Shown: positions 1,250 to 64,000 of the stretch, in pieces | How positions within the stretch are numbered: the first letter of the stretch is position 1 | Layout of the letters: the number at the start of each line of letters is the position of its first letter | Source: Astropecten irregularis | Taxonomy: Eukaryota; Echinodermata; Asteroidea; Paxillosida; Astropectinidae | Direction of reading: 5' to 3' | DNA: 64,000 nt | NCBI GenBank assembly: GCA_963971285.1 | Contig: OZ020263.1 | Coordinates: forward strand, 3,100,001 to 3,164,000 | The notes under the pieces: model-generated | Told to the model about the DNA's origin: nothing | Databases searched by the model: none | What the model saw: the letters and a program-made list of their open reading frames with translations, nothing else | Program-made: the position numbers and the translations under genes

Positions 1250-4200
1250 CTTGGCAATGTGACTAGGGTTTTGTGAGGAGGATTGCGAAGCAGGATGATG
1301 AGGTGGTGCTGCATATTGGCCTTGCCCGCGGCCCGGCGTTATAGTCGGCTGACTGCTGCTGCTGCTATACATGCCCTGGTTAGCATGGTGGCGGTATACC
1401 TGCTGCGGGTCCACCTGGGCGGGGTTGTACACGCCTTCACCAGGCACGCCGGCGGGCGAGTTGGGCGGGGTGTCCTGCGCCCCTCCGATGATGGGGGCAA
1501 CAATGGGCTCGGGGGCCACATAGTTTTGATGTTCCTGTTTAAGACAAACATGCAAACAAGCAAAATGAAATACTCAATACAAGTAATAAACACTTAAAAA
1601 TATTAAGTCAAACACTTTCGATCTCAGGCTGTATACCGTGATCATAATGGGTTGATGTGGCTGGCAGCCAAAGGACGCCCATGAATGCCAGCAACTCGGT
1701 CACGTGTAGCACCATCCTTCATAAATTAGCACCCCAGCTGCTAATAAGGATGATTAGCCTCCCAAATTATTATTATTATTATTATTATTAAACTGCTGCA
1801 AACTGCTCATAGGCCAAAATGATCTGAAATTCATAAAATGCTTGGAGTTAGGAAGGCCTGACACGTTTTGACACGTCCTAGCTTGATCTTAACCGAAGGA
1901 TTTGATGAAGATCCTGCTAGGATAGACACGTGTCAGGGCCTCCTAACTCCAAGCATTTTGAAAATTAAATACTGAACAAATTTACAATTTTGTGGCAAAC
2001 TGATATCTTCTCTTCTGAGAAGAAATGTGCCATTAAAAATCTGAACGTGCATAAGGATATATTTCTGAGATTTTTCTGAGGCTATTTATGGTGAAGGTAG
2101 CATGTCAGATAATTATCACTTTCGTATACATGTGTTGGAATTGAAAAAATTTGAGCAGACTTTCACAAAAGAGATGATAGATTTGATCTGATCCGCTTGC
2201 TTGAGCCACAACGCTGTACTTTTAAAAATAATAATTTCAACCCAGAAATTTCCGTTCTTTACCTTTGGCTTAATGAGAGGGGGGTCATTCCAGGCACCGA
2301 CGACCGCCTTTGGTTTTGAAGGATGCATGGTGACTGGCTGGTACCCGCCGGTTGGTAGCACACCAGATGATGGCGCATCAGGTGCAGTCTGCTGCCGCTG
2401 TGGATAACCGGCCAAGCCCGGCATCCGCTGCAGCTGTGGCTGCTGGGGTACGACTGGCGCTTGTGCTGTCTTCATGTACTCGGCTGGGTTGTACATGCTC
2501 GGCGACGGGTAAGCCTGACGTTGCGGCTGGGGCTGTGGCTCCGGCTGCAGTTGCTGCTGGTGCGTTGGCTCGTGATGGTAATACTGCTGCATGCTGCCCT
2601 CCTTGTAGTGTGGGTACTGGCGGGGGCCCGACAGGTTGGCGTGGTGGTCGCCGCTCGGGTTGCGCTGCCGGCCGGAGGCGTCACCCGCCGCGGGCTGCTG
2701 CACTTGTTGGCCGTAGCCGTAGTTCGAGGACTGGGCCGTCGCACTGACTTGGGATGTGTAGTACTGGCTGCTGGATACGGTGGTCGTCTTGAATGAGTCT
2801 CCGACATTCTGCACGTAAAAAGAAAGAGAGGTGATGATGATGAAGCAAATGAAAGGATGCATGTAGTTCACTTTTACCAAGAGGTAACACCTCATGGAGG
2901 CAACAGGGTTTACGCCTCAGTGCCCATGATCACTAACTTGCTGCCCCTGGCCATTGCCTTGGATCCCCTTCATATATTCCAGCAGACTTTTCAGTCCCTC
3001 TTCTAAAAAAAGGCTTTTTCCAGGGAGAACTGTCTTCTCCTTTTATCAGTAAGATTCTTGTCTTTACGTGTCAACTGCTGGATCTTTGTACCTTGTAACT
3101 TGTAGTATTTACTTCCGAAAGGTCCTCCAGGGACAATACTGGAAGGTGAGAAGCCTCAAGTTTGTGACTGAAAGACGAAATGAACGGCGGTTAGGCAAAG
3201 ACTCACCCTGCTGAATGGTGACCTCCCAGGCTGTTGCTGTTGTCCGGCCGCTTGCTGCTGTCTTGTAGGCGCAACACCCGCCGTACTACGCTGCGATCCG
3301 GCCACGGCCGCCATGCCCTGCGCCCTGAACAGCCGGTCTCGCAGCTCTTGAATCTGGGGCTGGGCCGACTCCCCTAGGTAGCCCGTGGCCGAGGACAGGT
3401 TGCCCTGGGCGGCCAGGAGCTGGGCATAGCTGGTCAGCTTCTCGGCAAGGATGGGGGAAGTGATCTCAGTGCCGTTACCCGTCTTGAGTTGGAGGGCCTT
3501 CCTGAGAATCATCACCTTCTCCACAAGGTCCTGAAAATCAAAGTTTTCACCAAAAAAAGCCTTGTTTTATTCTCACGTCAATATTTTCAAGAAAACCAAT
3601 TTTTTATTAATAATTTCATTGATTCTATTTATATTATCTTTAAGATGATATCAATTCTATTTACATTATTTTTTTTAAATGCTTGATTTACGTAATTTTA
3701 AAAGATACAGACATCAGCTCTTACCTGTAATTGCAATGGAGTGTTGGCATTGTGAGTCATCTTGGCCCAGCAGGCTACCAGTTTGTCCAGGTTACCCGAG
3801 CAGATGTAGCATAGGCAAGCCTCGGCCAGCAGGTCCCTGGTCTGGTCTGACTCCAGTCGCCCGGCAAGAGTGTCTGAGGGGGGGGGGAGTGAGACAGAGA
3901 GAGAGAGAGACAGTGGTTCAATTCATTTCCGGTGTCTAGCGTCCAACTCTGACAATTACACTAATAATAATTCTGAATTTATTCAGCGCACACATTTGTC
4001 CCAGACACTTGTGGCGCACATATTATTATCCCTGGTCATCGGGCCATAATTTACATTCCTGAAACCATCTGAACTCCCTTGGGAGTATACAGCCACGGCT
4101 ACTTTAAAGCGCACAGAGGCTAATCAAACCACAAAGCCATCTCTAGCCTCTGTATGTTAACAACTGAATGGTTAAAATCCTAGCAATTAGCAAGAATTTT

Positions 4201-7200
4201 GGAAATCTCGTGCTCTGATTATGTCAAGCAATTTTGTTTTTTTCCACTGATGGAGATTTGAGCTTACCGCATAGTGTTGAGAATTCCTTTACGGAAGCAT
4301 ACGTCAGAAGCGCAGTCATCGTCTCCTTCCAGTTATCAAGCTCGCAGCATTCGACGATGTCTGACAGGTCCTTGGTCACGACTGACGATATCAACTGCAT
4401 CAAAATCAAATCAATTATAATCATCATAAATTTACTCTGGGAAATCACTTAAATCATTTCATTTCCATCTTAGTACCGAACTTTGGTCCGACCAATTTCA
4501 GTTTCTCCCAATCTCAGATCCTCCTTTATTTAGGTTCATTCTCATTTCGAGTTCCTCCCAATTCTAGTTCCTCAAAATTTTCAGATCCCCCAAATCTCAG
4601 TTCTTTCCCAATCTTAGTACTTCCTACTCCAAGTTTCTCCCAATTTCAGTTCTGCCTCATTCCAGTTCTTCTCACACGTCAGGTTCTTCCGAATTCAAGT
4701 TCCTCCCAATCTTAGTTTTTCCTACTCCAAGTTTCTCCCAATTTCAGTTCTGCCTCATTCCAGTTCTTCCCACACGTCAAGTTCTTCCGAATCCAAGTTC
4801 CTCCCAATCTAAGTTCCTCTCTCAATCTTCACTCCCTCTCCTTCCCGGTTAATTAATCTGAATTTCAGGTTCTTCCAAATGTCACTTCGAAGTTCTCTCA
4901 CCCTTGAAATGTTGCACTTGGTCTTCTTGAAGTATCTGCGTTGTGTTGTGGCAAGAAGTTCCGGCCCGCCGGCAATAGCTAAAAGGATGGCATCGGCCAT
5001 GCGGTCATCATGGAGACACATCTCCACGGCAGCCTGGAAGTTTCCAGTCAGCACTGCCTGGCTGATCAGGCCATCAGTGTCTACGGGTCAAAACGAAATT
5101 GAAATCTCAAATATAGCACGTTCACACTTAATTTGCACAGAATTAGCATATAGCAATCCTAAAACAGGGGTCAATTTCATAGAGCTGCTTAAGCACCAAA
5201 ATTTGCATGAAAAGTTTTCCTTGATCAAACAGGATTACCAACCAAATTTTCATTCGATGTTTACTGCTTTTGACTTGTATTCGGCCATTGTTTGCTGAGC
5301 ATAACATTCAAAAGGAATTTTGGCTGACATACTGATTTCATTAACTAAGTTTTTTGGTGCTTAAGCAAATTTTGGTGCTTAAGCAGCTCTATGAAATTGG
5401 CCCCTGGGTGTCTGAGGTAATTCTGGGTCTTGAGCATTTCTATGAAGCTAACCTTCCTTTTTGGAGATGGTGAACGGCGATGCTGATCGCACCTCCTCCT
5501 CCGTTTGGTTCTCAACTTCGATGGGACCGCCGGCCGAAATGGCGTCAAAGGCTGCTGCCCCGTCAGAGTCCCCGAGAGTATCGCTTGGTGTCTGGAACAG
5601 GAAGATATAAATGTCATGTTTCAAAAGATCAAGTTAAGAAGATAGCATGCCAGCTATAACCTGGGGCCTTTCTCAAAGCTCGGCTCCGGCTCCAACTCCA
5701 TTTTGTGAATCCATTCTAAAATTATGGGTATCAAAATAGAGACTTTTGGCTTTTGTTAGGAAGTAGATTCTCTGGTTTGAAAAGGAAAACCACAACCTAT
5801 ATTTTCAGCATATGGATTACGGAGACGAAGCCGGAGCCACAGCCGAGCTTTGAGAAAGGCCCCTGGTGTAATCACACAATGGATGCATATCTTACTATCA
5901 CGATGATAACAATACGAGGAAATCTAAGCATTTGAATGAAAATCTTAAAATGACAAGAAAAAGCATTAGAAAGCTATTTTTTTTTTTTTTAAACTGACCT
6001 TTGACCCGACAGCTGGAGACCCTGCATCACTGCCCCCTTTGACCTCCGACCCAGGTAATCCCGCATCCAGATGCTGCATCCTCTCCGCAAGCTCCTCAGC
6101 GTCGACGGCCCCGGGCATGCCATTGGTCAGACCTGCGGGGGCTGCGGTTGCTGCAGCGACCTTGCGTGCCACTTCGTCCGTGTCGAAGCCGAGAAGCGAC
6201 ACAAAATGCGGCCTGGGCTCTTTCTCAAAATTCACCTAAAAAACAAGTTTTTCATTAAAAAGGTGTTTTTTACTCAATGGGAGACTTTTGAGAACCGGTC
6301 TTCAAGTCAACAGCGTACGCAATTGTGAGCATGCGCGCGTTGTTTTGTGCCTGTGCTGTTATGCGTGTGCGTGCGCTGTTGACTTGAAGACCGGTCCTCA
6401 AAAGTCTCCCATTCTTTCCTAATTTTATTGTTATGTTATATGGAAGCTTTCGTTGATATTGTGGAAGCATGCAGTTAAGGCATATTAAAAATGTTGTACA
6501 CAAAGTCCCATAGGCTTGCTATCTATGAAAGGGTCTATGGCTTGTATTTCTCCATAAGTGGCTACCGCTTCTTCAGATAGACTGATGTGGAAGCTTAAGC
6601 TATAGCCAGAATGATCGGACACTGGCTCCCTTACTACCCACCTTGAGAAACTTCCAGATCTGAGATTCCATCTTGTCTTGGGACTGGCCGATCTTGGTGC
6701 TGCAGAAGTCCAGGAAACTGCCCTTGGACAGGGCCGCTTCCAGAGCGTTGGAGCGTTTGACCAACTCAGTCTCCGTGATGACCTGGCTGATGTAGACCTG
6801 ATTGGAAGGCTGCTGCTTGGTGGTCTGGAAAGAGATGAGTTTCCCTCCGAACTGGTGGGTTGGAGGGGAGAATCGGAAGGACAGAACAAGAAGGCATTTT
6901 AAGGAATTTGTTTCGAGTCCCCTGGTATTTTTATGGTATTATAACAAAACGTAACGGAAACCATACAATAAAATTCTAAATTCTTCATCTCAACTCAGCA
7001 TAACTCAATACACGGGTTTACACTTCGGCGGCCATCTTAGATTTTGATCGCAACTTCAAAACGAGGCACTTCCACGCATGCGCACTTTTCGAAGTGTAAA
7101 CCCATATATTCCTAGAGATCTGGGGATGAGATTAACCACCATGTTCTCTTCTGTTGTGATCTGTTCTAGAAACCTAGAAATCTATGAGAGCAGCAGAAAT

Positions 7201-10200
7201 TTGAGTGGCAACCAGAAGTCAGAGTGACAAAGACCTTCGGTTTGGCATGTGGGTCCTCCCTTCTGGACCAACGGCGTAACTCACCCCAAAGGTGGCCCCC
7301 ACGGGTCGACGGAGCCACTTGGGCGGTTTCTTGAGGACCATCGGTTCGGTGGTGGCCGGGGTCTGCTGGCTAACCTGCTGGTTGAAGCCCCCTGTCCCAG
7401 GGAAGGAGGAAGCGATCTACCAGATGGAAAGACAAAAAGAGACAGGTGAGAGCTGTATCACTTGGGAACCACCTTCAAAGGCCGAGGAAACTTTACGTGC
7501 AGACTGACCTTTGTAAGGAGCTAGATGAGCATGTCCAGGACTGCCTTCTGGGCACCTTATTGGTTCTTTGCTGTAATTTCTACATCTTGTATGTAGATCG
7601 GTTTGCGGAAACACCATGTAATAATCGTTTGTACTTTCGCACTTCTATATCGTTCGCACTTCTATATCGTTCGCACTTCTCGCAATTAGGTCTCAACGTT
7701 TCGACTAGTCTGCTCTAGTCCTCATCAGGAGACCTAATTTGTACATCTTGTTTGCTGTTTTGGACACCCTTATTTTTATTTTGGACACTGCTGCTATATG
7801 ATCCTATCCATTCCCCCCTCCACCCTACAACCCTGACTGATTGAAGAGAAATGTCAATCAGTACTTCAGTTCTACTGAGTTGGCCATTCTTCTCCTTTGT
7901 TTTGTTCTTGTAGCATCTTACAGTGGCTTTTAGCCTTGTTTGGAGTGAATCTTCATCAAAAAAAGAGAAGAAGAGAAAACAGGATACCTTATCGGCTTGT
8001 CTCTGTTGCAGCTGCTCGTCGCCCTTGTGTCCGCCCATCAGCGAGTAGAATGTCACGCGGCCATCGAAGGAGGAGCTGGCGATGACGGCCGGGTTGCGGG
8101 GACACCACTGGATGTCGAAGCTCCACTGTGAGGACGTGGGCAGCTCGTAGACCACCTCGCCGCCCTGGACGGCGCTGTTGGGATTCCAGCAGAGGATGCG
8201 GTTGTCCTTGGCACAGCTGAGGAGGAGGTCTGGGTCCTGGGGGCACCAGGCGATCGACAGCACTCCCCTAAGAGAGAGAGGATCATCAACAGAGGATCAT
8301 CAACAATTTGGGAATACACAGTGGAAAGAAGAAGGGCCACCCGACAGATGTCTTCCAAGCAGATAGGACTCGACAAAACTTGTCACAAATCAGTCCTTTT
8401 TCAAAAATGCAACTCCTGAAGTTCTGATGAATTAATAATTTGAGCCGTTTGGTCAGGAAGTTTCCCGAATAAAGCCCTCAACCAAACCTTCGCCACTTTC
8501 TTTCAGACTCTTTAAGATTGGCCTGAAATCCCTTCAGCTCTACGGTCCTGTGTCTAAATTGTATCTCTGAGTATGTCTTACCTTTCGTGGTTTTCCAGAA
8601 CTTTGAGGGGTGACGTTGCAAACCTCAGGTCCCATATCTGGACGACTGGTGAGTGGTCATCTTCCGAGGCTAGCGCCATCTGCGTCGCGACCTCCGGATG
8701 CCAGGCCACTGCCTTGCACTGGATCTAAAGCCACACGATTCAAAGAAATAGATAAATAAAGCGAAGAACATTTGGAACTCTAACACAAGACCCCTGGAAT
8801 AATAAACCAGCACCAGAGATTTTCCAGCCCGTTTCAGAGGTGCTCTTTCCCAAATAGCCCTCCTTCAAAGTAATATGTTGGAAGGATGCCACTCGTAAAG
8901 ATGGATGGCTCTTAGGGCAGAGCGCTGGCATATCACTCTAGAGGTCTCGGTCTCGAGTCATGGTCATAACAATTGAAAAATTAACCAATACAAGTAATAA
9001 ACTGCTGCAAACTGCTCATCAGCCAAAATGACCTAAAATTTATAAAATGCTTAGAGTTGGGAGGGCCTGACACGTTTCGATCCCAGCAGGATCTTTATCG
9101 AAGGCTGTAATGACAAGACAACATAATGAACATATAGGTCAAGCTACATAGTAACTTATGGGTAGGCAAACAGGGGGATGAAGGTGGGTAGGATTAGAGG
9201 TGGACAATGGAGAGGGGAAGAATGGGGTAGGTGAGCTGGGATTAACAATCCCATTGTTGTCTTGTCATTTAGCCTTTGATAAAGATCCTGCTAGGATCAG
9301 AATGAGTCAGGCCCTCCCAACTCTTAAGCATTTTTAAAAATTAACCAGTTATTTTTTTTCCTTTGTGCAGAAGTAAACAACTATTGCAGTATTTCCAGAC
9401 AGTTCCAGGCGACATCTTACCCGTGCGCTGTGGTCGGTGACTTTGATGATCGGCTCATTCTTCCGCAGGTCCCACACGACACAGCGTCCTCCGGGATTTG
9501 TAGATGCCAGGATGTGTTGGACCTGTCGGTTCCACGAAACGCAGCTGATCTCGTCTGTCGGCTACAAAAAAAACCCAAAACACGAATACAAATGAGGATG
9601 CATGTCTTTATCTTCCCTTAATTCTAAACTTCTAACAAAACCAAAGTATAATCATCAAAATAACCACAAGGGAAACTGAACTGAAATTAAAGTCATTGAA
9701 AAGTGAACAAAGAAAAATTGACTGGGTCGGGATTCGAAACCGGCGACCTCCTGAACACCGAACAAGCGGTCTACCAACTGAGCTATCCAGCACTAAGTTG
9801 ATGGTGTCCCAAATAACAAATATATGTTGTTCGTTTGGCTAGCAGAAGCCTTTCAGAGTGGGTGACAGATGATTCTTTGTTTCCAATTCAATTTCTCTGA
9901 GCCTTGGCTCTTGTAAGGACAAACCAATCTCAGATTCCGATGTACCAATGTATTTTTTCCCCTAGTAGCCTTGTTCCTTTACTAAGCCAAATTTTGGACG
10001 TGCAGCACTTACCACTGACTTGGCGCCGGGTGTCATGGGGGACGCTAGGTTGTTCAGATCCCAGATGTAAATTTCCGATTCGCTGGCTCCGGAGGCAAGG
10101 AGGTTAGACTGAAAGGGGTTGAAGTCCAGTGCTTTCACGGCGCCGGAATGCTGTAGAATAAAGGCAGGAAGAAAAACATCACACTTTCAATTCAATTAAG

Positions 10201-13200
10201 TTCAATAGACTATGCTGTGGCCTAGTGGTCTGGCAGCCCCCACAGGTCTGAGCAATGGCATGCCCGGGGCTGTCAACGCCAAGGAGCTGGCCGAGAGGAT
10301 GCAGCATCTGGATGCGGGATTGCCTAGGTCGAAAATCAAGATCTTGTGGTCAAACTACAGATTGTGGGTTCGAATCCAGCCATGGGCTAGTGGTGCTTGC
10401 GTCCTTGGGCAAGACGCTTTGTCACATATTGCTCCTCTTCACCCAGGTGTAAATGGATACCTGTGAGGGTAGAGACGGCTGGTGCACTTGATCAGCCCTG
10501 CGCGTTTTTCAGGCAGCTGCGGGCTGTATACTCCCCAGGGAGCTGAGATTGTTTCAGGAATGTAAATGGGCCCGATGACCACGGATAATAATAGTGTAAA
10601 GCATTGTGATACCCTTCTTGTGTGTAAGAACGCTATATTAATGCCTAAATTATAATTATTACTATGTGAAGTCCAGCAGTGAAACCCTTCCCCACTCACC
10701 TTGTCAAGTTGTGCGATGGAAGCATCGGCATTGTCCAGCAGCTTCTCGGCGTCGTAGATGTGGATCACGCCGTTGTCTGTTCCGCCGACGATCACGCCGT
10801 TCTTCCGTGTGCCGGTGCCCATGCCAAACTTCCCCCAAACGACTTTGTGAAATCTACATACAGAGACAATCATGTTCAGTTCTTAGTATCGAAACCATCT
10901 GAAAATTCATCACATACCTAGTTTACTGTGGTTCAGCCGACTCCACAATTCTCGGTGTAAGCTTAATGAATTCATGGAAACCGATGTTTTCCGACGGAAA
11001 ACTAGACGATCATGATCGGTTCGGCGGCCATCTTGTGTGGCTCTGCTCCACACATTTTTGCCGTCCGTGTGTGTGGCGCAGTCACACAAATAAAAAAAAG
11101 AAAGAGGGCCACCGTTCCGACGTGATCGTCTGGTTTTCCGTTGGAAAACATCGATTTTCATCACACGGAATAATTGTGAGTATAAATGAATAGGCTGCAT
11201 TTCATCCCTGACAATCGAGAAGAGATGGAGCGATTTTCAAGCTGATTTGCGATGTATTTGTTGTCCAGGTCTCGAAATAGTACTAGCCCGGTGGACAATG
11301 TCTAGCGAAAACCGCTCCGGACTAGCTAGACTTGCTTTCTTGGTTGCCCGGTGGGCTAGTAAAAAATTAACAACCTGCTTTTTGGTTTTTGATAAATGTA
11401 CGAAGTTAAAAGTAAACTGAGTGTGTACAAAATGTGTCGCAATTTATTTTATTTATGATATGTTCGAGCATACGTACGTCCCGAATAGCGAAGCGCTTTT
11501 TTCCGTTCAAGCTCTAAACACCGTACGCATAGCGTAACACTTGCACAGAGCGCACGGGTAACAGCTCACACAACGCCCGCCACATGATCGATTGAACGAT
11601 GCTGCACAGCGAACACGCTGCGTGTGCCGTGTGCTCAATGTAGGCTTGTTGCTCGGAATTATTGGACTTGTCTCAGTCATTTTACCATTCTGAATACGTT
11701 ACGATGATTCTTGTGATTGGTTTAATAGTTCAACATACATGTACATGTAGTGGAAATAAGCAAGCACTCTATTATATATCGCGTCGACTCAATTTTGTGC
11801 TTACGGTCCGCTATGACCACGTGACAGCTTTTTGCAGAAGTCGCGTCGCGGTTCCTGCAAAATAGACTGATGCATGTCTACTAATCTGGTATTCGACTAC
11901 TAGTTTACTTTTGTCATGTATAACGCACTGGTCGTGAAGCCGTAACCAGCCTTCCGTTGCACACATGCATTGCATTTTGAGAGATCAGCGGTGGATGCGG
12001 AAATCAAAGCGAGTGTTTCTGAATGGCCGGCCGCAGAGGAATACTTTTCGTCTTTTCGACATTTATTGTTGTCACAAGTTAGCTAGGAAAGGAAATCTTC
12101 CATGATCCACAGTGGATGCTCATTTACTTGCGCCAAAAACCTGCTACGGGCAGAGTCATTATGATGGTGAATTAAGCCACAACAGACAGGAGAACCCAAA
12201 AAAGTTCTGAACAAGTTATCACTGGGTTATCGTAAGCATTTTGTTTACCTTCCATTTTCTCAGTAACTTTTGAACACGTCGGACCGATCGAACATGAGAA
12301 TTAAGTTTTTCCGATGTGTGTCTAAGTATTCATTACTCGGTATTACTCTCTAAAGGCTAATATTCTACACTTGGACATACATGTATTATTGTTTTTAATA
12401 TATTTTTTACCAATTTCTAAAATCATTTATCATTAAAAAGAAATACTTTTGTTTATTATTTTTTTTAACAAGGATCAGTGTTAACAGAAGCAAAACGTAC
12501 ATGTTATATTAACACGTAAGGTATTAATACTATAACTGCATGCCCCACTCCATGCACACATACACCTACCACCACCAACAACCTAGGGAAAACAGTAAAC
12601 ACTGTACACATTTTTCTTTCATATTGTTAAAATGGCCTTCCTGTAGTGATCATAACTTCCACTCTTATGGAAGTGTCTGAAACAGAGTCCCCTGTTTAAA
12701 ATCTTTTAAAATTTAAAATATGTACGGGCTAGTAAAATTCTTAACGGGCTAGTAAAATCTGAAGTTGGCTAGCCCGGTGGGCTAGCCAGGAAAAAAAGTT
12801 AGCGCAAGGCCTGTTGTCATTTAGGGAAATTTTCGGCGCATTTACTGTGAACTTGGGTGAAATACTATTTTTTCCGTGTACAACACATTTAGGGCTATGG
12901 GATTCTCTGGGGCGCTAGGCCGACTGTCAACCCCAAAATTAAAAAAGGGAGTTCAGCGCCCCAGTTACTGGGTCTAACGCTTCTTAATATCTTTTGCTCG
13001 GATGGTACCTGTGCTCAGTGTTCAGTGTGGACTTCAGCTGCATATCGACCGACGGGTCTGCGAGATCCAGGGCATAGATCTCCAGTGCCGCGCTGGTGCT
13101 GAAGGTAGCATCCAGCTGCTGGGCTGCCGTGCCCGCTGCCACATAGATGGGGTACTGCTCGGCTGGACTCCAGGCTATGTTAGCCGTCCTGCTTATCTCC

Positions 13201-13211
13201 TTCACTTTCAT
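1250..13211 (-). CDS. SEC31A: SEC31A, COPII outer-coat protein (C-terminus not found)
   Basis: Sec31 pairs with Sec13 to form the outer cage of COPII vesicles at ER exit sites and boosts Sar1 GTP hydrolysis on Sec23. Coding exons, in order: 13211-13009, 10853-10700, 10150-10013, 9561-9421, 8724-8582, 8267-7988, 7416-7285, 6851-6642, 6235-5999, 5591-5453, 5080-4902, 4394-4268, 3873-3725, 3530-3207, 2808-2263, 1534-1250. All have AG/GT borders and compatible phases, giving 1129 codons. The N-terminus ([20 protein letters not shown]) and WD40 blades occupy exons 1-6 ([36 protein letters not shown]). An alpha-solenoid region lies in exons 8-14 ([20 protein letters not shown]). A Pro/Gln-rich tail fills exons 14-16 and contains WNDPP, the conserved Trp-Asn that in yeast reaches the Sar1 active site. 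The human protein has roughly 100-150 further C-terminal residues; no exon for them was recognised in bases 1-1249, so they probably lie outside the window. Confidence 0.95.
1615..1775 (-). mobile_element. SINE-like fragment, family B
   Basis: The stretch from ATCTCAGGCTGTATACCGTG through GATTAGCCTCCCAAATTATT is present in the opposite orientation at 28019-28180. It ends in an ATT microsatellite (1766-1790), the usual tail of such elements. Confidence 0.5.
1783..1965. mobile_element. Hammerhead-type repeat, family D (short copy)
   Basis: AAACTGCTGCAAACTGCTCA, AAATGCTTGGAGTTAGGA and the core TTTGATGAAGATCCTGCTAG are the marks of a dispersed family (8985-9345, 33384-33715, 57220-57700). Inverted halves meet around 1865-1900. 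Confidence 0.6.
3955..4150 (-). mobile_element. 3' part of a tRNA-type SINE
   Basis: The minus strand reads CAGGAATGTAAATTATGG, then CCCGATGACCAGGGATAATA, matching the tail of the SINE at 10207-10650. The tRNA head is missing. Lies in SEC31A intron 12. Confidence 0.55.
4480..4830. repeat. Degenerate short tandem repeat in SEC31A intron 11
   Basis: About twenty imperfect copies of a 14-17 bp unit around TCCCAATCTCAGTTCC. An internal duplication of about 100 bp (4610-4700 against 4710-4800) is visible. Confidence 0.6.
5167..5404. mobile_element. Foldback MITE, family A2
   Basis: GGGGTCAATTTCATAGAGCT at the left and its mirror at the right, with AAGCACCAAAATTTGC next to the ends. Related to family A but with a different subterminal part. 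Other copies at 47867 and 55870 carry nested insertions. Confidence 0.7.
5663..5864. mobile_element. Foldback element, family E (GGCTCCGGCTCC ends)
   Basis: GGGGCCTTTCTCAAAGCTCG with a GGCTCC repeat at the left; mirrored GGAGCC repeat and GAGCTTTGAGAAAGGCCCC at the right. Internal GTGAATCCATTCTAAAAT and GTAGATTCTCTGGTTTGAAA recur at 15676 and 50560. Confidence 0.7.
6277..6413. mobile_element. Foldback MITE, family F
   Basis: AATGGGAGACTTTTGAG at the left and CTCAAAAGTCTCCCATT at the right, with ACCGGTCTTCAAGTCAACAG mirrored inside. A relative lies at 17261-17391. Confidence 0.75.
7683..7741 (-). ncRNA. Hammerhead ribozyme motif (Penelope/retrozyme type)
   Basis: Read on the minus strand: an outer helix strand AAATTAGGTCTC; the core CTGATGAG (7728-7721); a 6-bp stem II GACTAG with loop AGCAGA and CTAGTC; GAAA (7702-7699); CGTT; then GAGACCTAATT closing the outer helix with 11 pairs. 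All invariant core bases are present. Stem III is reduced to the self-complementary ACGT, so it could form only between two molecules, as in the minimal hammerheads described in Penelope-like elements and retrozymes. Cleavage would fall after the second T of CGTT. One extra G sits beside stem II. It lies in SEC31A intron 6, in antisense-free orientation (same strand as the gene). Confidence 0.75.
8985..9345. mobile_element. Hammerhead-flanked non-autonomous element, family D
   Basis: The left end holds CGATCCCAGCAGGATCTTT in one orientation and the right end AAAGATCCTGCTAGGATC in the other, with GACAAGACAAC/GTTGTCTTGTC pairing just inside. The interior is G-rich and non-coding. The ends resemble hammerheads (stem GATCC-TGCTA-GGATC, then a GAAACGTC-like 3' part) with a damaged CUGAUGA core. 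In SEC31A intron 4. Confidence 0.6.
9693..9850 (-). mobile_element. tRNA-derived SINE, family A
   Basis: The minus strand carries TAGCTCAGTTGGTAGACCGC (box A) and GGTTTCGAATCCCGACCCAG (box B region), then CAATTTTTCTTTGTTCACTT. The same cassette occurs about a dozen times in the window, so it is a SINE and not a tRNA gene. Confidence 0.75.
10207..10650 (+). mobile_element. tRNA-type SINE carrying a SEC31A exon 9 fragment
   Basis: The head GGCCTAGTGGTCTGGCA looks like box A. The box B part, TTGTGGGTTCGAATCC, appears only after about 100 bp of foreign sequence (10233-10332) that matches SEC31A exon 9 (6137-6037 on the minus strand) at roughly 85-90% by eye. The body CCTTGGGCAAGACGCTTTGT and CACCCAGGTGTAAATGGATA resembles the conserved core of vertebrate and deuterostome V/Deu-type SINEs. 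The tail GGGCCCGATGACCACGGATA recurs at 3955-4150. Confidence 0.7.
10968..11160. mobile_element. Foldback element (CGATGTTTTCCGACGGAAAA ends)
   Basis: CGATGTTTTCCGACGGAAAA, CTAGACGATCATGATCGG at the left pair with GATCGTCTGG, TTTTCCGTTGGAAAACATCG at the right. In SEC31A intron 1. Confidence 0.65.
11266..12813. mobile_element. Non-autonomous DNA transposon, possibly hAT-like
   Basis: Begins CAGGTCTCGAAATAGTACTA and ends AGTTAGCGCAAGGCCTG. Both ends carry the near-palindrome CTAGCCCGGTGGGCTAG just inside. The pentamer TTGTC flanks both sides (11261-11265 and 12814-12818), a likely target duplication. No ORF of note in its 1.5 kb. Fills most of SEC31A intron 1. Confidence 0.5.
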
Positions 13212-19014: not shown

Positions 19015-22000
19015 TTAGTAGACACCTGCTATCTTGAGGATGATGACGACGATGACAATGAGCACCACGGCGATGACCACACCCAGGATGACGCCCGTCT
19101 TTCGGTTCAACCATTTATACTTGGTGCTCACCCGCTTGGCAGACTTCTGAAAGGACTGAGCCTGTGGGACCAAAACAACAAAAGAAAGGCAGCTTGTTAC
19201 ATCGCTTGTCACACAGCTTGTTGTGTAGCTTGTCACAAAGCTTCTAACATAGTTTGTTACTGTTTGTCACAGCTTGCAATCAAACGTGTCACACAGCTTG
19301 TAAGACAGCTTGTAACATAGCTTGTAACACATCTTGTTACATCACTTGCCACACAGCTTGTCAAGAAGCTTGTAACATAGCTTGTTACATAGCTTTACAT
19401 AGCTTGTCAAGAAGCTTGTAACGTAGCTTGTCACACAGCTTGTCACACAGCTTGTTACATAGCTTGTCAAGAAGCTTGTAACGTAGCTTGTAATGTAGCT
19501 TGTAACGTAGCTTGTTACACAGCTTGTTACATAGCTTTACATAGCTTGTCAAGAAGCTTGTAACGTAGCTTGTCACACAGCTTGTTACATAGCTTGTCAA
19601 GAAGCTTGTAATGTAGCTTGTAACGTAGCTTGTCACACAGCTTGTTACATAGCTTGTCAAGAAGCTTGTAACGTAGCTTGTAATGTAGCTTGTAACGTAG
19701 CTTGTTACACAGCTTGTTACATAGCTTTACATAGCTTGTCAAGAAGCTTGTAACGTAGCTTGTCACACAGCTTGTTACATAGCTTGTCAAGAAGCTTGTA
19801 ATGTAGCCAGCTTGTTACATAGCTTTACATAGCTTGTCAAGAAGCTTGTAACGTAGCTTGTCACACAGCTTGTTACATAGCTAGTCAAAAAGCTTGTAAA
19901 GTAGCTTGTAACGTGGCTTGTAATGTAGCTTGTAACATAGCAGGTAACACAGCTTGTTACATAGCTTGTCAAGAAGCTTGTAACGTAGCTTGTAATGTAG
20001 CTTGTAACATAGCAGGTAACACAGCTTGTTACATAGCTTTACATAGCTTGTCAAGAAGCTTGTAACGTAGCTTGACTGGAGCGGGATTCAAACTGGCAAC
20101 CTCCTGAATACCATACAGGCGCTCTACCAACTGAGCCATCCAACCCTACGTTGGTGGTGTCCCTAATAGTCAATTATCTTTGTTTGTTTGGCAGTCAGAA
20201 GCCATGAAACCACTCACATACCACTATATCCCAAGGATCATTGAAGATACGTGCAGCATTAACAATGCTGCAACCTGAGAAACAGTACATGGGGGATCAC
20301 TCGAAGAGGATTACAGCTTAAAATTTTTTTTTAGACTTGGGAAGACTCCCTGAAAAAATGCAAAAAGGGATTAATGGGAATTGTTTCAGGACGGGGGTCT
20401 TACGCTTGCTTCCAGGTCCTCCGTCTTCTGCATGAGGTCGTCTAGCTTCTCTCCCCTGCTCAGTACTTTATCGATGTTCTGAATCATAATATCCTTGACT
20501 TCATCCACCTGGTTCTGCAGGTTGGTTATGTTGCTGTTGGACTCTTTCATGTGCGAGTAGTGGTCCTGTTGGAACAAATACAGGCAGTCTGAGGCTGAGG
20601 TCACTAAATACGCCCCCAGGCGACACACTTAATACGTTCGGGCAAGTGTTTAAAGGGAGCACATAGGATTTGCAAAGATGCGCGTTTTGGCTGAATTTGG
20701 TACTTAAACAGAACGTTCTCGCGTTTGAGGTCGACATGAACGAGGTCCGGTCCGTCCACGTTCACACCAATCTAAAGCTCCCTATTGATAACTCAAGGTT
20801 AAGTTTGATCTTGGCGTTTGGTGAAATCGGACACAGGATCCTCACCATCTCTTGGCTGAGCACGATCTTAAAGTCCCTGTCCAGTTCGTACTCTCCGGCA
20901 TGCTGGACCCGCTGGCCGAGACTCGTTGAGGTGATGCGACGTATGATCTCATTCAGGAAAGCGTGGGACTTCTGTCTGCTGAAGTCCGTGGTTGTGGCAC
21001 AGAGGTAGGTGATGCTGTCCTGTACGATAACCGGAAACATGTACCTGGGAGTATAAAGATGATCAGGATAAAAGATGCAGCATCTATCACTGAGATGTGG
21101 TATACTTCACCAACAATGTTAGCCCAACGACCAAAATGCAGGCCTTGAATTTGTTTCTGAAAGGGGCAAGGTCGTTTTCCCATTGCAAGGGGCACTTCCA
21201 TTGGAAAATCATAATGTCTATGGAAACATTTGAAGGGGGCACTAAGGCCAAGAACCAGGGCAATGAAGGCCATGGCCTCTGTGGCCTCCTTTAAATTCAA
21301 GGCTTGAAAATTTAAACAGAAATTCTCAGAGAGGCCAGCCCTGATAGCTGACCAGATAAAAATGATTGAATGGACAATTAAAAAAAAAGAAGAAAACTTG
21401 AGTGGGATTCGAACCTACGACTACTGGAATACCGTATTGGTGTGAACAAAAAGTGGGTTTAGAACACAGAACAGTGAATGTACGCATTGTGAACGTGGAA
21501 AACGAAGTTCTGATCTTAACAGAAAGACCAGGTCTTCATTTAAATAAAAATGAGGGGAGCTGCAAATCGCTCTCCTTCAATCAACATAGAGAATTTAGGA
21601 GAGTGATTTGCTCTCACTAACAAAAATCAAGTTTGAGCTGCAAATCTAACTCCTTCAATCAACATAGGGCCTACTCATACTAGTGAATAAAGAGAGCAGT
21701 TTGCTCTTGCTGAACCAAGTTTTTGCATCAGAACAGAATCAGAAGTTTGCTTGTCCTGTTGAAAAAGATTATAAAAAGATAACACTTTTTTAGTATTTTC
21801 CATAAAGGGTAAATGTCAGCTGGAAAAATGTATACTGTGATGTTTTGAAAAAAGGCAGCTCTCCTTAAATTGTTAAGGAGAGCTCTCTTTTTTCACTCTC
21901 CTTGGAAAACATTAAGGAGAGCGGAGGAGAGTGATCACTCTCACTCTCACTCTACTTAAAAATCAAGGCCTGAAAGACTGTGTACTACTGAGAGCCTTCT

Positions 22001-37032: not shown

Positions 37033-40263
<3,231 letters not shown>

Positions 40264-43117: not shown

Positions 43118-59646
<16,529 letters not shown>

Positions 59647-63369: not shown

Positions 63370-63384
63370 ATACATCACTTAAAC

Positions 63385-64000
63385 AAATGCTTCTTGTTTT
63401 AGCCCTTTGTGTGACTTAAACAAATGCTTCTTGATTTAGCCCTTTGTGTGACTTAAACAAATGCTTCTTGATTTAGCCCTTTGTGTGACTTAAACAAAGG
63501 ATTGTTGTTTTAGCCCTTTGTGTCACTTAAACAAATGCTTCTAATTTTAGCCCTTTGTGTGACTTAAACAAAAGCTTCTTGATTTAGCCCTTTGTGTGAC
63601 TTAAACAAATGCTTGTTGTTTTAGCCCTTTGTGTGACTTAAACAAAAGCTTCTTGATTTAGCCCTTTGTGTGACTTAAACAAATGCTTGTTGTTTTAGCC
63701 CTTTGTGTGACTTAAACAAATGCTTCTAATTTTAGCCCTTTGTGTGACTTAAACAAAAGCTTCTTGATTTAGCCCTTTGTGTCACTTGAACAAAGGATTG
63801 TTGTTTTAGCCCTTTGTGTGACTTAAACAAATGCTTCTTGATTTAGCCCTTTGTGTGACTTAAACAAATGCTTCTTGATTTAGCCCTTTGTGTCACTTAA
63901 ACAAAGGATTGTTGTTTTAGCCCTTTGTGTGACTTAAACAAATGCTTCTTGATTTAGCCCTTTGTGTCACTTAAACAAATGCTTCTTGATTTAGCCCTTT
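63385..64000. repeat. 37-bp satellite running off the right edge
   Basis: About 17 units of TTTAGCCCTTTGTGTGACTT, AAACAAATGCTTCTTGA. Units differ by shared variants (AAAGGATTGTTGTTTTAG, AAAAGCTTCTTGATTTAG, AAATGCTTCTAATTTTAG) that recur in order, pointing to multi-unit block duplications. Confidence 0.9.

Follow-up and report, generated by a model that had tools for sequence, protein, structure and literature searches.

A segment of SEC31A exon 9 within a SINE in intron 2 of the same gene

SEC31A and the SINE in its coding intron 2

The window (the whole stretch of 64,000 nt analysed) contains on its minus strand nine coding exons (Table 1), which together give one open frame of 546 aa and are separated by introns with GT/AG ends. 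The first 340 aa of the deduced product match human Sec31A (7sul, E 6e-153), and the product is, judged from its sequence, SEC31A. Coding intron 2 (549 nt) consists mostly of a SINE that is antisense to SEC31A, and the head of this SINE is interrupted by a copy of part of SEC31A exon 9. The donor in exon 9 is intact and in frame, and the segment now in intron 2 was thus copied, not moved.

Table 1. Features of the SEC31A locus and of the SINE copy in its intron 2 (window positions)
Feature	Position	Strand	Basis
SEC31A coding exons 1-9, overall	5999..13211	-	546-aa open frame and 7sul match
SEC31A coding exon 1	13211-13009	-	
SEC31A coding exon 2	10853-10700	-	
SEC31A coding exon 3	10150-10013	-	
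SEC31A coding exon 4	9561-9421	-	
SEC31A coding exon 5	8724-8582	-	
SEC31A coding exon 6	8267-7988	-	
SEC31A coding exon 7	7416-7285	-	
SEC31A coding exon 8	6851-6642	-	
SEC31A coding exon 9 (wholly contains the donor segment)	6235-5999	-	
Donor segment in exon 9	6039..6145	-	BLASTN match and gene model
SEC31A coding intron 2, host of the SINE	10151..10699	-	Flanking exons join in frame, GT/AG ends
SINE 5' end, box A-like head, CTGTGGCCTAGTGGTCTGGC	10215..10234	+	Aligned with 29 other copies
5' junction, GC common to SINE and donor	10233..10234	+	Chimera compared with donor and SINE copies
Strictly foreign insert (93 nt) from SEC31A exon 9	10235..10327	+	BLASTN, genome search, copy alignment, junctions
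3' junction region, GTCG-AAAA-TCAA	10328..10339	+	Chimera compared with donor and SINE copies
Rest of SINE: box B-like region, body, ATT-rich tail	10340..10660	+	Genome matches, copy alignment

A box A-like sequence (TGGCCTAGTGG, 10218-10228) and a box B-like sequence (GGTTCGAATCC, 10367-10377) were read by eye in the SINE; we take them to fit the Pol III box A and box B consensus and regard them as candidate boxes. Rfam and ARAGORN gave no tRNA match on the window copy, whose head is split by the insert. When 10207-10660 was compared with the window's own genome (475.7 Mb), the best 40 of 2676 first-look candidates being scored, matches were obtained to its own locus, to 39 other places at 90-93% and to two short fragments. 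The alignments to these 39 places start only at query base 126-139, where the exon piece ends or further to the right. In an alignment of 29 other loci (L002-L030) the family head reads CTGTGGCCTAGTGGTCTGGC-GTGTCGTACTC-AAGATCTTGTGG..., and 594 heads with the normal spacer were found in the genome by an exact-flank pattern, which sees only part of the family.

The body of the window copy differs from the majority of the 29 copies at 18 of 331 columns, and 11 of these 18 differences are private (shared with at most one copy). The sequence ACTATG is present before the head (10209-10214) and again after the tail (10661-10666). Since copies L002 and L008 read CTAGTGCTGTGG, its status as a target-site duplication is uncertain, and ACTATG may be either such a duplication or part of the SINE; the other copies mostly have no clear target-site duplication, with a few (e.g. 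L012) showing about 10 nt. A further, incomplete copy of the SINE body is present at 4021-4150, in the opposite orientation and with greater divergence (80% over 133 columns), apparently within a later intron of SEC31A.

The exon 9 piece, its junctions and other inserts at the site

BLASTN within the window aligned 10233-10339 (plus strand) to 6145-6039 (minus strand) without gaps, with 94 of 107 bases identical (E 1.1e-33), the next-best match overlapping 10233-10339 having an E value of 0.42. The copy differs from exon 9 at 13 bases (about 12% diverged), and its translation of 35 aa can be aligned to 35 aa of SEC31A exon 9. The presence of a SEC31A exon 9 piece within an intronic SINE, as proposed in the preliminary description, is confirmed. 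The ends given there (10233-10332 and 6137-6037) were a few bases off, and the term 'inverted' holds relative to the gene, whereas on the SINE strand the piece is in sense. The location of the piece between the boxes agrees with the box A-like and box B-like sequences read by eye, and the view that its host is a SINE, probably of tRNA type, is in line with the many other genomic copies.

A genome search with 10200-10345 (146 bases), in which very common words are ignored, matched two places only, the locus itself and exon 9 (2 candidates, 2 scored); no spread of the chimera was seen in this search. Whether other SINE copies carry the exon piece had been raised as a check on the preliminary description: it is absent from 29 of 29 aligned copies, 28 of which retain the site while L014 is truncated there. 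Because these copies lack the piece and only two places in the genome contain it, the transfer was from exon 9 to the SINE, and by these comparisons exon 9 is the donor and the SINE the recipient. On the same grounds, a segment native to the SINE and an exon 9 derived from the SINE were refuted, as was chance similarity by an E value of 1e-33. Against an assembly error stands the 12% divergence, since a mis-join of identical reads would not be expected to give so many differences. No support for chance similarity, assembly error or a SINE-native origin was found in any of these comparisons, and all three can be regarded as practically negligible.

At the insertion site the family reads GGTCTGGC-GT-GTCG, whereas the window copy reads GGTCTGGC-93 exon bases-GTCG, so that GT has been replaced. 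Apart from the missing GT, nothing of the SINE is lacking to the left or right of the insert, and the insert has neither a target duplication nor a poly(A) of its own. At the right-hand end, SINE and donor have in common both GTCG (10328-10331) and TCAA (10336-10339), and the AAAA between them is a full match to neither parent. Since a genomic copy at C1:18039688 reads GTCGAACTCAAG, the comparison suggests GTCG as the right junction, with AAAA closer to the SINE side.

Other inserts at the inter-box site were sought among spacers of 26-141 nt with exact flanks, and the 24 hits, several of which belong to one array, were classed by eye. Foreign sequence was present in 3 of the 24 and a gene piece in 1 of the 24 (the window copy only). 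Among the 16 hits with spacers of 80-110 nt, 14 contained a second head, one (L034) was a repeat of the box A unit and one was the window copy. Tandem tRNA-like heads (two or more) occur in loci L033, L035-L042 and L044-L048 of the family, the second head being partial in L038 and L044, and L046-L048 forming one array. Of the remaining loci, L049 and L051 contain a duplication of head or body and L053 and L054 an internal duplication, and L052 and L055 proved to be L034 once more. In L050 (G000:C18:10206762-10206902), a reversed piece of SINE tail with GTCAT on either side occupies the same inter-box spacer. In the inter-box region of L056, 34 nt (bases 1532-1565) lie between two copies of AAGATCTTGT; comparison of these 34 nt with the rest of the fetched SINE loci gave no convincing match.

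Origin of the insert

The distance between donor and recipient within SEC31A is 4.1 kb, and the two have opposite orientations. A random donor would fall within 4.2 kb with a probability of about 1.8e-5 (475.7 Mb genome), although the apparent coincidence is inflated by the original observation having been limited to donors in the same window. Given 3 foreign inserts among the 24 hits in the family, chance fails to explain the near donor even if the family is several times larger, and a local source of the exon piece, whether by repair or fork restart or by a switch onto SEC31A RNA, is therefore strongly favoured.

The distance also bears on the proposal that SINE RNA and SEC31A mRNA recombined elsewhere in the cell and that the chimera later landed in SEC31A by chance. 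The orientation and exon-only content of the insert fit such a course, as does an insert at least as old as the SINE in 11 of 12 dating variants (see below), but the genome search matched no further copy of the chimera, and the probability of a chance landing so close to the source exon (about 4 kb) would be of the order of 2e-5, making this origin highly improbable. Of the two origins put forward in the preliminary description, insertion of the exon piece into an existing SINE (or into one being made there) is thus the one favoured, the free chimera of SINE and SEC31A RNA being highly improbable at this distance.

With the donor, the recipient, the junctions and the uniqueness of the chimera in the genome established, we consider the insert to be probably the product of a single, local event of templated insertion, at a break or where synthesis had stalled. 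In such an event, i) a break or stalled DNA synthesis would have occurred in the tRNA-like head of the SINE in SEC31A intron 2, ii) the free end would have been extended by copying about 93-97 nt of exon 9, on the other strand and 4.1 kb away, and iii) rejoining to the SINE would have taken place almost at the exit point, with loss of 2 bases, via GC and either GTCG or TCAA. The template may have been DNA, or SEC31A RNA present at the locus. Local insertion is supported by the microdeletion (GT) together with the 2-nt and 4-nt sequences shared at the junctions, although shared sequences of 2-4 nt can arise by chance. Two intact sides of the SINE, a loss of just 2 bases and short shared sequences speak for repair. 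An RNA template is suggested by the exon-only content of the insert, which about 10-11% of placements within 13211-5999 would give, and by its sense orientation relative to the SINE (one of two orientations).

The age of the insert was compared with that of the SINE, using 13 differences from the exon in 107 bases or, with the right junction at GTCG, 10 in 98. The ratio of insert age to SINE age ranged from 0.94 to 3.66 over 12 variants, with lower limits from 0.39 to 1.51; it was at least 1 in 11 of the 12 variants, and the lower limit exceeded 1 in 4, values which ancestral polymorphism of the donor would inflate by making the insert appear older. An insert younger than the SINE was not borne out in these 12 variants. 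Ratios below 1 would tend to be expected from a later break; the ages somewhat favour a piece that came together with the SINE or shortly afterwards, and speak to the same degree against a break long after it.

Because the dating fails to make the insert younger than the SINE, a template switch during integration of the SINE has to be weighed beside local templated insertion. The reverse transcriptase (RT) would have left the SINE RNA close to the 5' end, copied SEC31A RNA tethered to the gene during transcription and gone back to the SINE RNA. The piece consists of exon sequence throughout and runs in the sense of the SINE, it lies near the SINE 5' end, where reverse transcription finishes, and the ages of insert and SINE are compatible; furthermore, chimeras formed by LINE-1 RT switching, as described in the available part of PMC13174262, carry both parts in the same orientation. 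Such an origin, however, presupposes two switches, the second of them bringing the enzyme back to within 2 bases of the point of exit, while the jump described in that part of the paper is from RNA to RNA without return, and the target-site duplication is uncertain. We therefore regard the integration switch as a tentative alternative, and it is rather doubtful that integration of the SINE used the nascent host RNA as a second template, with the sense exon piece as its fossil.

Pairing with exon 9 and related systems

The intron 2 transcript carries an antisense copy of exon 9, and strong pairing between the two is predicted by modelling, so that exon skipping or circular RNA would be physically possible. 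The predicted duplex of intron 2 and exon 9 has an energy of -214.6 kcal/mol; a perfect complement would give -258.5, and 100 shuffled partners gave -71.9 kcal/mol on average (sd 6.2). The 13 differences between insert and exon are distributed 6/1/6 over codon positions 1/2/3, and at 7 of them the exon has G where the insert has A; 10 are transitions, 8 of which leave G-U pairs.

These values could be read as a sign that the antisense piece has been kept since its pairing with exon 9 regulates SEC31A splicing, by skipping of exon 9 or by formation of a circular RNA of exons 3-8. In favour of such a role are the strong predicted duplex and the 8 of 13 differences that still pair as G-U. Pairing strength, however, follows from common origin, the 6/1/6 distribution gives no sign of conservation of the insert, and the G-U excess is weak (8 of 10 transitions), three of the eight being clustered at the junction. 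Neither the codon-position counts nor the G-U counts gave a sign of selection to keep the pairing. Regulation of splicing by the piece appears improbable on this modelling, and the exon piece in the SINE is most likely a passenger without function.

FoSTeS and MMBIR are replication template-switch mechanisms. The insert resembles replication template switching as described in PMC7954356 in a transient switch to a nearby template with return to nearly the same place, but the short-range events there are seen as mutation clusters, whereas the SEC31A insert is 93 nt taken from 4.1 kb away. Class 2 templated sequence insertions (TSIPs) are characterized, according to Onozawa and Aplan (PMC5110952), by microdeletion, microhomology and no target duplication around the insert; they are described there as derived from distant genomic regions and are argued to derive from RNA. 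Compared with that description, the SEC31A insert was likewise copied with the donor left intact, with a microdeletion, short shared junctions and no duplication flanking the insert, but its donor is part of the same gene, at a distance of 4.1 kb, and with about 12% divergence the event is an old one. Since the donor is not distant, the insert is only TSIP-like and is not classed as a TSIP. The LINE-1 chimeras (PMC13174262) resemble it in that a retroposon is linked to part of a host RNA, both having the same orientation, but in the SEC31A case the host piece is internal and flanked by retroposon sequence on either side, the element is a SINE, and the gene that supplied the piece is also the target. 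No equivalent case appeared, judging from titles, among the matches listed for literature on templated insertions and on exon copies in inverted or antisense orientation, and a literature search with the SINE's own letters returned no paper on SINEs by title.

The kind of event is ordinary but unusually readable, a fossil of the patching of a genome with nearby sequence. Since many intact copies of the recipient repeat exist, the donor, the site of insertion and the missing bases can all be placed almost to the nucleotide. If the SINE and the exon piece are found to have arrived together in a relative, the locus would be evidence that RT used the transcript of its own target gene; if they did not arrive together, it would be a clean example of local templated repair.

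Elsewhere in the window, self-comparison detected tandem repeat arrays at 19190-20074, 57220-57630 and 63375-64000, and an Rfam match to the histone 3' UTR stem-loop was found at 39655-39699.
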